From the NCBI GenBank assembly GCA_903907745.1, contig CAIVPF010000073.1, positions 1-64,000 of the forward strand: a DNA stretch of 64,000 nucleotides. The letters are read 5' to 3'. Below the pieces are notes generated by a model that made no database searches, was not told where the DNA came from, and saw nothing but the letters and a program-made list of their open reading frames with translations. The stretch's first letter is position 1. Each line of letters opens with the position of its first letter. Positions 11,367-64,000 of the stretch are shown here, piece after piece. Origin of the DNA: an uncultured Cytophagaceae bacterium. Lineage in GTDB: Bacteria; Bacteroidota; Bacteroidia; Cytophagales; Spirosomataceae. Made by a program: the position numbers and the translations under genes.

Positions 11367-12059
11367 ATGCGATCAGGATCAGAAATATTGTTGGATGCAT
11401 GGGATCGGGGGGAGGAAGAATGCTTAGATTTTAAGAATCTGAGGAATTTGGTGCGTCATGGAGAGGGTCAGCGATTGGAGTTTAAGATGAAGGTGAAGTT
11501 TCCTGAAAAAATAATCAAGGAGTTGGTCGCTTTTGCAAATTCGGATGGAGGTCATTTGTTTGTCGGGGTGGGTGATGAGGGCCAATTGGAAGGTTTGAAA
11601 TTTGCGGAGGAGGATCAGTTTTTATTGGAGCGGGCGATTGATAAATTTTGTTTTCCGGCATTTTCGTATCGGGTATATCCGGTGAGTTTGGAAAATGGTC
11701 GGAAGGTGTTGGTGTATCAGGTGTATGAAAGTGTGGATAAACCGCATTTTGTGCAGTTGGAAGGTGAGGAACAGCCCCATTGTTATGTTCGTGTAAAGGA
11801 TCGGACGGTGCAGGCGAGTAAGGAAATGAAGCAGATTTTACGTCGGGAACATCAGGACGGGATTTCGTTTTCGTATGGGGATTCGGAGCGTTGGTTGATG
11901 GATTATTTGCGGACACATGGGACGATTACGTTGCAGGAATTTTCGACCAAATTGGCTTTGCCGATGTGGTTAGCATCTCGGAAATTGGTTTTATTGGTCT
12001 TAACGAAGGTGTTAAAAGTAGAACCGAGGGAATCGGAGGATTTATATTCATTATTATGA
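11367..12059 (+). CDS. AlbA_2 (Schlafen-type) domain protein
   Basis: The protein has 230 residues. Residues about 28-150 match the AlbA_2 / Schlafen-like putative DNA-binding domain: GEGQRLEFKMK, then ELVAFANSDGGHLFVGVGD, with the characteristic N-S-D-G-G-x-L-x-x-G-V pattern. The last 60 residues look like a winged helix (WLMDYLRTHGTITLQEFSTKL). Proteins of this kind are usually annotated as ATP-binding or transcriptional regulators; the target is unknown. Its stop codon overlaps the start of the next gene (ATGA), so the two are translationally coupled. The coding strand is strikingly G-rich. Confidence 0.75.
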   Translation: MRSGSEILLDAWDRGEEECLDFKNLRNLVRHGEGQRLEFKMKVKFPEKIIKELVAFANSDGGHLFVGVGDEGQLEGLKFAEEDQFLLERAIDKFCFPAFSYRVYPVSLENGRKVLVYQVYESVDKPHFVQLEGEEQPHCYVRVKDRTVQASKEMKQILRREHQDGISFSYGDSERWLMDYLRTHGTITLQEFSTKLALPMWLASRKLVLLVLTKVLKVEPRESEDLYSLL

Positions 12060-13420
12060 GAATTACACTAGTATTTTTTGTTATGTTTCTGTGGAGCTGT
12101 TCGAAATCATCGATGGATCCGCAAACAAGCCCTACACCTCAGGCGACCGCTTTAGGGTCCTTTGATTTATTGCAGGACAAAGTGTTGACGCCAAGTTGCG
12201 CTTCATCCGGCTGTCATTTGTCCATTCAGGATGCTTCTTATGCCCAACATGGCTTGGTGTTAGCCAAGGGGCAATCCTACATGAATTTGATTGGTGTTAC
12301 GCCTAAAAATTCGGTCGCGCTTGCAAATAAAATTTTACGTGTCAAGAAATTTTCTTCAGCAGAAAGCCTTTTATATCATAAATTAAACTGGGACCTAAGC
12401 CATCATGTGATGGCGAATTATGGATCTCCGATGCCTCTGGGGGGTAAGCCGGTGAGTAAAGGCCAATTGGATTTTGTTCAAAAATGGATCGAAGCTGGTG
12501 CCCCGGAAAAAGGGGAAGTGGTGGATGCGAAGTTATTGGATGATACGACGCCGAGTTTCGTGGAGCCAACCGATTTTGTTGCCTTGGATCCGCCAGTAAA
12601 GGAGGGAAAGACGGGTTTACAATTGAAAGTAGATCGCTTTATCGTTGCGCCCAATTTTGAACGGGAATTATTTGTTCGCCGACCCTTGAATAATACCGAG
12701 CCAATTTATGTCAACCGAATTAAATTGAAATCTCGATCGAATTCGCATCACATGGTCTTGTATGATTTTCGATCCAAAACCGGATTGCCCTATTTGGACG
12801 AGGTGCGGGACCTTCGAAATTTAGATAATTCACTCAGCATTACCACGGTCATTCAGATGTCTAATCACATCTTTTTAGGGGGAGGGACCGATCCTAATTC
12901 GGACTATACCTTTCCGGAGGGAACTGCCTTGCTTTTGCCTGTGAATGCTTCGATCGATTTAAATCCTCATTATTTTAATAAAACGAAGGATAATTTATAC
13001 GGAGAAAATTATGTCAATCTATATACCGTTCCGGCCGCGCAGGTGAAAAAGGTGGTGAACATGATTGATTTCAATAATACCTCATTTTCATTGCCCGCCA
13101 ATCAAACGACGGTCATTTCAAAGAGTTTTACTTTCGATACCGATGTAGCGATTGTTTCTTTGACATCGCACACGCATGCACGAGGGAAGTTGTTTCAAAT
13201 CAAAATTAGAGGAGGTAGTCGGGACGGTGAAATCATCTACGAGGATACCGACTGGTCACATCCGAAGGTGATTAATTATGCCCAACCTATTTTGTTGAAA
13301 AAGGGGGAAGGACTAACCTCTGTCGTTACCTACGTGAATAATACGTCCAAAGCCCTTGGATTTGGATTAACCTCCGAAGACGAAATGGACATCATTTTTG
13401 GCTACTACTACAACCAATAA
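12056..13420 (+). CDS. lipoprotein with cytochrome-like motif and PHM-type copper monooxygenase domain
   Basis: I start at the ATG at 12056, which overlaps the preceding stop (ATGA) and gives a lipoprotein signal (MRITLVFFVMFLWSC, Cys15); the track's longer version would translate through the neighbour's frame. The 454-residue product has a heme-type motif CASSGCH (Cys48, Cys53, His54; CX4CH spacing). After it comes a domain whose ligands fall in the order and spacing of peptidylglycine monooxygenase-like copper enzymes: His231-His232 (SHHM), His305 (NPHY), His372/His374 (HTH) and Met444. Such enzymes hydroxylate substrates with copper, reductant and oxygen. Here the heme motif may deliver electrons, which is inference. 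The substrate is unknown. The location should be periplasmic or outer-membrane attached. Confidence 0.78.
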   Translation: MRITLVFFVMFLWSCSKSSMDPQTSPTPQATALGSFDLLQDKVLTPSCASSGCHLSIQDASYAQHGLVLAKGQSYMNLIGVTPKNSVALANKILRVKKFSSAESLLYHKLNWDLSHHVMANYGSPMPLGGKPVSKGQLDFVQKWIEAGAPEKGEVVDAKLLDDTTPSFVEPTDFVALDPPVKEGKTGLQLKVDRFIVAPNFERELFVRRPLNNTEPIYVNRIKLKSRSNSHHMVLYDFRSKTGLPYLDEVRDLRNLDNSLSITTVIQMSNHIFLGGGTDPNSDYTFPEGTALLLPVNASIDLNPHYFNKTKDNLYGENYVNLYTVPAAQVKKVVNMIDFNNTSFSLPANQTTVISKSFTFDTDVAIVSLTSHTHARGKLFQIKIRGGSRDGEIIYEDTDWSHPKVINYAQPILLKKGEGLTSVVTYVNNTSKALGFGLTSEDEMDIIFGYYYNQ

Positions 13421-62636: not shown

Positions 62637-64000
62637 AGTTTTTTGTTCTTTTGTTTTTCATGGGCTTTTTTACCCTACCGCTGTTGGCAGGGCCTAAGGA
62701 AAAATTGGCCTTGCCCTCGGATGTGGTGCAGGCGATGCGGGAATTACCGAGTGCTTTGGATTTTAATATCGATGTAAAACCGATTTTGTCGGACAAATGC
62801 TTTTCGTGTCATGGACCGGATAAGGCTAAACAAAAGGCCGGTTTGCGTTTGGATATGTCAGACCATGCGTATGGGGAATTGCCTGAAAGTCCTGGAAAGT
62901 TCGCCATCGTGCGGGGTAATATAGGGAATAGTGAAATGGTGCACCGTATATTGTCGAAGGACCCCAAATATGTCATGCCATCACCCAAATCCCATTTAGA
63001 ATTATCGCCAAAGGAAAAGGCTGTTTTGGTCAAATGGATTCAAAACGGTGCGGAATATAAGCCCCATTGGGCATTTGTAAAGCCGATCAAAAAAGAAGTT
63101 CCTGAAGGCAAAAATCCAGTGGATTATTTTGTGCAGTCCAAATTAAAAGCGCTCAATTTAGGTAGCTCACCCAAGGCGAATCGTCATTTTTTATTGCGTC
63201 GCTTATCTTTTGATTTAACGGGTTTACCGCCTACGTCTCAGGAAATTCGGGAATTTGTGGAAGATTCAAGTCCGAATGCCTACGAAAAACAAGTAGATCG
63301 TTTATTAAATTCTGCGCATTTTGGGGAGCGGATGGCGGCTGACTGGTTGGACATCGCCCGATTCGCCGATTCGCATGGCTATACGATTGATCGGATTCGG
63401 GACATGTCGCCCTATCGCGATTGGGTGATTCAGGCATTTAATCGGAATATGCCTTATGATCGTTTTATTCATTACCAATTAGCTGGAGATTTAATGCCGA
63501 ATCCAAGCAAGGATATGTTGATCGCTACGGCCTTTAATCGCAATCATCCCCAAAATACGGAGGGAGGAATCGTGGAGGAAGAATTCCAAATGGAATATGT
63601 ATTGGATCGCGTGAATACCTTTGGTGATGCGTTTTTAGGCTTATCGACGGGATGTGCGCGCTGCCATGACCATAAATTCGACCCGATTTCGCAAAAAAAT
63701 TATTATCAATTAAGTAGTTTTTTTAATACCGTTCGCGAAGCTGGACAGATTTCCTATAATGACGATATGCCGAGTCCGACGATGTTGTTGCCAACGGCCA
63801 AGCAAGAAGAGGTGTTGACTTTCATTAAAACCAAGATTCAACGTGCGGAGGAAAAGCTAAAGGCACATCAGGTGGTGAATGAGGCGCGTAAAGGATGGTT
63901 GGCCTCTGAGGAAGCCAAAGGATTAGCCGCTGCCGCCCAACCTAGCACGCGCGGGCTTCAAGCGCATTTTTCATTCGAGGGTAATTTGACCTCAAAGCTT
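62633..64000 (+). CDS. DUF1549/PSCyt1 domain cytochrome protein, 3' end beyond window
   Basis: The open frame runs from ATG 62633 to the window edge (456 codons) and is absent from the ORF track because it is cut. It has a signal peptide (FFVLLFFMGFFTLPLLAG). A planctomycete-type cytochrome c domain follows, with the heme motif CFSCHGPDKAKQKAGLRL near residue 60. The DUF1549 domain follows (LRRLSFDLTGLPPTS, then GCARCHDHKFDP with a second CxxCH). The visible end (RGLQAHFSFEGNLTSK) looks like the start of a LamG-like domain; a DUF1553 domain would be expected next. Such proteins are typically found beside DUF1501 sulfatase-like proteins and act in the envelope, with unknown substrate. Confidence 0.88.
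   Translation, partial: MKFFVLLFFMGFFTLPLLAGPKEKLALPSDVVQAMRELPSALDFNIDVKPILSDKCFSCHGPDKAKQKAGLRLDMSDHAYGELPESPGKFAIVRGNIGNSEMVHRILSKDPKYVMPSPKSHLELSPKEKAVLVKWIQNGAEYKPHWAFVKPIKKEVPEGKNPVDYFVQSKLKALNLGSSPKANRHFLLRRLSFDLTGLPPTSQEIREFVEDSSPNAYEKQVDRLLNSAHFGERMAADWLDIARFADSHGYTIDRIRDMSPYRDWVIQAFNRNMPYDRFIHYQLAGDLMPNPSKDMLIATAFNRNHPQNTEGGIVEEEFQMEYVLDRVNTFGDAFLGLSTGCARCHDHKFDPISQKNYYQLSSFFNTVREAGQISYNDDMPSPTMLLPTAKQEEVLTFIKTKIQRAEEKLKAHQVVNEARKGWLASEEAKGLAAAAQPSTRGLQAHFSFEGNLTSKL

Follow-up and report, generated by a model that had tools for sequence, protein, structure and literature searches.

What kind of enzyme is encoded by a bacterial gene whose product seems to join a heme motif to a two-copper site of the animal type, and does the putative regulator gene that it overlaps have anything to do with its function? 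The animal two-copper enzymes make noradrenaline and amidated peptide hormones and take their electrons from vitamin C. The window analyzed here, a 64,000-nucleotide stretch of a contig from an uncultured Cytophagaceae bacterium, encodes a 454-residue lipoprotein for which an earlier note, made from the sequence alone, had proposed a PHM-type copper site and an N-terminal heme motif. The open reading frame, the lipobox-like sequence LWS-C15, the CX4CH motif, and the six candidate copper ligands were all found where they had first been noted. The features, all on the forward strand, are as follows.

11367 to 12059, forward strand: SLFN_AlbA_2 protein of 230 residues, whose stop overlaps the monooxygenase start (ATGA) (Pfam match; junctions)
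12056 to 13420, forward strand: 454-residue lipoprotein with a predicted cytochrome-c-like domain and a predicted PHM/DBH-type dicopper monooxygenase core (open reading frame, translation, Cu2_monoox_C match, AlphaFold2 and Foldseek)
12056 to 12100, forward strand: signal peptide with lipobox-like ...LWS-C15 (sequence; C15 unchanged across the 28 aligned proteins)
12158 to 12508, forward strand: PSCyt1-like cytochrome c domain, about residues 35 to 151 (hhalign match to the genome's own PSCyt1 domains)
12197 to 12217, forward strand: putative heme attachment motif CX4CH, C48-x4-C53-H54 (invariant; alternates with CX2CH among relatives)
12431 to 12433, forward strand: Met126 in the motif G-x-P-M-P, proposed distal axial heme ligand (invariant; aligned to the MP of PSCyt1)
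12746 to 12751, forward strand: His231-His232, predicted CuH ligands, equivalent to PHM H107/H108 (alignments)
12968 to 12970, forward strand: His305, predicted CuH ligand, equivalent to PHM H172 (alignments)
13169 to 13177, forward strand: His372-x-His374, predicted CuM ligands, equivalent to PHM H242/H244 (alignments, including profile against DBH)
13385 to 13387, forward strand: Met444 in the DEM motif, predicted CuM ligand, equivalent to PHM M314 (alignments, including profile against DBH)

The predicted copper core and its six candidate ligands

The protein matches the Pfam family Cu2_monoox_C (E = 1.8e-6, 28 bits against a curated cut-off of 23), as do 28 of 28 homologs. We fetched 42 loci encoding relatives, 91 to 40% identical, from Cytophagales, other Bacteroidota, and one member of the Gemmatimonadota. 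The profile check was only partly borne out, in that the N-terminal Pfam half, Cu2_monooxygen (PF01082), was not matched by the 454-residue protein; because the fold match spans about 290 columns, this absence is a weak criterion. Longer, more distant relatives gave weak, sub-threshold matches to Cytochrom_C or Cytochrome_CBB3 and to Cu2_monooxygen, and an NCBIfam search with the monooxygenase protein gave zero matches. The overlay on PHM that had been suggested as a check did find a match: an AlphaFold2 model of the protein (pLDDT 79, pTM 0.76), compared with the PDB using Foldseek, retrieved DBH at 1.7e-11 and PHM at about 1e-10, with a probability of 1.00, and the top 31 matches were all DBH or PHM, with TM scores of up to 0.65 when normalized on PHM length.

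In PHM, CuM is held by what we take to be H242, H244, and M314. The CuH ligands of PHM are H107, H108, and H172 (PMC6123673), and those of DBH are H262, H263, and H333 at CuH and H412, H414, and M487 at CuM (PMC4846438). In a pairwise alignment with rat PHM, the reference sequence being identical to PDB 1yip, the six candidate ligands fall on H107, H108, H172, H242, H244, and M314, and in joint alignments with PHM they co-align in 39 of 39 bacterial proteins under three strategies and without manual placement. When the copper domain was shuffled (300 trials), at most three of the six ligands were aligned, compared with six of six for the real domain. Furthermore, the six ligands, together with C15, C48, C53, H54, and M126, are invariant in 28 full-length homologs with identity down to 40%. 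A phmmer search of the PDB with the single protein returned nothing relevant, and the profile of the 28 homologs, run against PDB sequences, had human DBH as its sole and weak match (E = 0.34), with HTH and EM in register. Similarly, hhalign of the single sequence with rat PHM was not significant (probability 0.6%), but HTH and DEM were nonetheless aligned correctly. In line with the earlier proposal that all six PHM-type ligands could be placed, the Pfam match, the predicted fold, and the ligand conservation support a PHM/DBH-type dicopper core. The HTH-to-Met interval had also been presented as equal to the 72 residues of PHM, and this value is correct, but we rejected it as a diagnostic of PHM: it is 72 in many close relatives and 75 or 82 to 85 in others of the family (a range of 72 to 85), and human DBH has 75 (H412-M487).

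The predicted cytochrome c domain and the probable location of the protein

Compared profile to profile, the N-terminal domain aligns with PSCyt1 domains encoded in the window genome (hhalign probability 92%, E = 6e-7) in a register that puts C53-H54 on the CH of PSCyt1 and M126 on its MP. Like PSCyt1 (PF07635), a planctomycete-type cytochrome c, the domain has the CH of the heme motif, a distal MP, and a W-x-x-x-GA ending; it differs in having CX4CH instead of CX2CH, in scoring below the Pfam threshold for that family, and in being fused to a copper monooxygenase. A stand-alone model of the domain, built without heme and of medium confidence (pLDDT 79), had zero fold matches in the PDB. Every relative that bears the heme domain has an MP[LP] motif farther along the chain than CXnCH, and five members of the same subfamily (L053, L079, L080, L081, and L089) have CX2CH in the column occupied by CX4CH in the query. 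On the copper-domain tree the motif length switches roughly three times, and supported branches force no fewer than two of these switches; the window genome encodes cytochrome c assembly proteins. The CX4CH heme site is credible because C48, C53, and H54 are invariant together with M126, because CX4CH alternates with CX2CH, because the domain aligns with PSCyt1, and because the assembly proteins are present. The earlier suggestion that this motif could bind heme is supported, and more strongly than it had been put forward: homology and the invariant distal Met point to a predicted N-terminal heme c domain. As for the further suggestion that the heme feeds electrons in place of ascorbate, such a domain could do so. 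The PSCyt1 domain at 62798 to 62980 of the window is one of ten PSCyt1 matches above the cut-off in the 2.8-Mb window genome, a number that looks high for a Cytophagales genome of this small size.

The earlier note had described a surface redox enzyme. An acidic signal for surface export is known from lipoproteins of Bacteroidota. The lipoprotein Cys is present here, but no acidic surface-export signal was seen after C15 of the monooxygenase, where the sequence reads CSKSSMD, and because of this a periplasm-facing position appears more likely than a surface one.

Distribution in Bacteroidota and relation to PHM and DBH

The product of 12056 to 13420 is the only PF03712 protein of the window genome. 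We extracted 31 further PF03712 proteins, 29 from a scan of 393 Bacteroidota genomes and two from the relatives; all 31 have the HH, HxH, and (x)EM motifs, and 30 have CX2CH or CX4CH in front of the copper core. On this count, the predicted fusion of a cytochrome to the copper core is the normal layout in Bacteroidota, beyond the window genome alone. The heme domain is not universal in the family, since L084 (L103:8217-9140) is a 307-residue lipoprotein with the full set of copper ligands and without a heme domain; it offers a natural heme-less comparison for the cytochrome fusion. The bacterial PF03712 proteins form two deeply separated subfamilies in a tree, neither of which was matched in the plasmid collection. 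Bacteroidota proteins with a Cu2_monoox_C match and CXXCH, such as L063, L066, and L079, resemble the query in combining a cytochrome c domain with a six-ligand core. L063 and L066, however, belong to the longer subfamily, with CXXCH and MPP, and lie far off on the tree, L066 differing further in its type IX secretion tail, whereas L079 shares the subfamily of the query and differs from it in having CX2CH.

Like PHM (PDB 1PHM and 1SDW), the protein has a predicted two-domain beta fold (Foldseek about 1e-10), six copper ligands, a DEM motif, and a CuM interval of 72 residues. In contrast to PHM, to which it is about 16% identical, it is a bacterial lipoprotein apparently fused to a c-type cytochrome, and its catalytic domains are free of cysteines, whereas PHM has many, in disulfides. 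C15, C48, and C53 are the sole cysteines in the translation, and the conserved PHM disulfides are accordingly absent. The peptide-carboxylate anchors of PHM are presumably R240, N316, and Y318. In the joint alignment these positions are taken by T370, I446, and F448, which are invariant in the 28 homologs; because these residues cannot anchor a carboxylate, the protein probably does not amidate peptides, and the replacement argues for a less polar substrate. DBH (PDB 4ZEL) is the best structural match (1.7e-11) and shares the presence of an extra N-terminal domain ahead of the copper core, but this is a DOMON domain in DBH and a predicted cytochrome c here, and the cysteines for the DBH disulfides are missing. 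For DBH, a comparison has been drawn between the DOMON domain and the cytochrome (heme) domain of cellobiose dehydrogenase (PMC4846438).

The PHM/DBH core has so far been regarded as a eukaryotic ascorbate enzyme, and in a review table from 2020 PHM and DBM appear under eukaryotic cuproproteins only (PMC7435645); yet, as judged by a PF03712 match, the fold family is represented in 36 of the 393 Bacteroidota genomes sampled. In the collection of non-subscription papers that we searched, bacterial cytochrome-PHM fusions were not the subject of any study, although Pfam and the sequence databases already contain such bacterial proteins. It is possible, and we put this forward tentatively, that Bacteroidota hold a class of self-wired dicopper monooxygenases in which a cytochrome c, as a rule joined to the PHM/DBH core, stands in for ascorbate, and that the eukaryotic enzymes derive from, or share ancestry with, heme-wired ones. 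The route of the electrons to the two uncoupled coppers in PHM and DBH is a long-standing question, and so is the origin of these enzymes. A natural single-chain version with a spectroscopically visible donor would allow the step-by-step transfer of electrons to CuH and CuM to be watched directly.

Proposed working, neighboring genes, and rival readings

We consider it probable, from the sequence and the predicted structure, that the protein is a copper monooxygenase with the PHM/DBH fold and a c-type cytochrome of its own, anchored by lipid and most likely facing the periplasm. In the working that we propose, a periplasmic donor, either a respiratory cytochrome c or another reductant, would reduce heme c at C48/C53, the axial ligands of which would be H54 and M126, and the heme would hand electrons singly to CuH (H231, H232, and H305). 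O2 would bind and be activated at CuM (H372, H374, and M444), CuM would hydroxylate a small substrate, lodged between the two copper domains, at one of its C-H bonds, and the second electron would reach CuM via CuH. In this scheme we infer the metal and heme occupancy, the direction of electron flow, and the O2 chemistry, and covalent heme, rather than ascorbate, is probably the reductant of CuH.

The upstream gene, which had been read as AlbA_2/Schlafen-like, does encode an SLFN_AlbA_2 protein (Pfam E = 7e-21), and the ATGA overlap of its stop with the monooxygenase start is present and kept at every genus-level locus with a readable junction. Within the genus, the order cysN-cysD-cysH / AlbA_2-monooxygenase-kup-HIT / gpsA is a fixed block, and the order AlbA_2-monooxygenase-kup recurs, without the overlap, in Pseudarcicella (L023) and in L026. 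The overlap and this closeness in the two outgroup loci speak for a regulator and a redox enzyme acting as one functional unit, the unusual pairing to which the earlier note had drawn attention. However, in seven congeneric genomes (G002, G007, G013, G019, G021, G023, and G030) AlbA_2 adjoins kup and the monooxygenase gene is cleanly absent, about 170 to 240 bases remaining between AlbA_2 and kup (L046, L047, L048, L049, L050, L051, and L052). Moreover, in L029 AlbA_2 is inverted and 5 kb distant, and the flanks of the remaining distant monooxygenase loci lack it; in other families it occurs without the monooxygenase or without the remaining block, in ten further genomes of this order it lies in unrelated contexts, and elsewhere in the order it is common and the monooxygenase is found in other contexts. 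As AlbA_2 is kept at the locus in seven genomes without the monooxygenase, we rejected it as a functional partner and regard a functional unit of the two as highly improbable. Their adjacency, which is not confined to the window genome but is kept in the genus and at two outgroup loci and breaks down elsewhere, is inherited synteny with translational overlap, a link by position only. In a kup tree with modest internal supports, the monooxygenase-lacking genomes fall in one subgroup, within which L015 carries the gene. Because this subgroup is nested in a clade whose outgroups carry the gene, loss in the congeneric subgroup is the simplest reading, and the seven genomes (L046 to L052) are a ready comparison for the phenotype of the monooxygenase.

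No gene family was found to recur beside the monooxygenase across families, and a conserved neighborhood was rejected as a clue to the substrate, only lineage-specific genes recurring: MbnP/MbnH in Runella, a CCP_MauG gene near L097, AhpC/TSA-type redoxins (L093 and L104), and GH113 and protease genes (L099/L100/L107). The lack of a conserved partner gene and of a recognizable substrate anchor, together with the habit of heme c domains of exchanging electrons with respiratory chains, would suit an oxidoreductase of the same fold run backwards, in which copper oxidizes a substrate or Cu(I) and the heme passes electrons to the respiratory chain without oxygen insertion. We think this rather unlikely, given that the full CuH/CuM ligand set, including the CuM Met, is strictly conserved, as in O2-activating monooxygenases. 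In Runella, the copper-linked MbnP/MbnH genes lie about 1 to 3 kb upstream of the cytochrome-PHM gene. Across the 393 genomes MbnP and PF03712 occur together more often than expected: MbnP is found in 25 of the 36 PF03712-positive genomes and 75 of the 357 others or, by genus, in 17 of 27 with PF03712 and 38 of 153 others, neither count taking account of phylogeny. This co-occurrence hints at copper supply, and it also fits a lipoprotein that stores, senses, or delivers copper, with the PHM fold retained but without catalysis. Such a role seems to us improbable, since the two copper sites and the heme site have stayed intact over deep divergence, which is more than binding alone needs, and the window genome has no MbnP above the cut-off. 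A heme-fed monooxygenase is the reading that we prefer.

Two further observations concern the neighborhoods of relatives. At L035:3172-5073 in Runella (also L034, L042, and L094), the cytochrome-PHM gene is closely preceded by genes for MbnP (PF20243), a MauG-type di-heme peroxidase (MbnH-like), and a PAS protein. In Aquirufa (L017:7402-8262), the monooxygenase gene is separated from kup by a gene whose product looks, by eye, like a dienelactone hydrolase.
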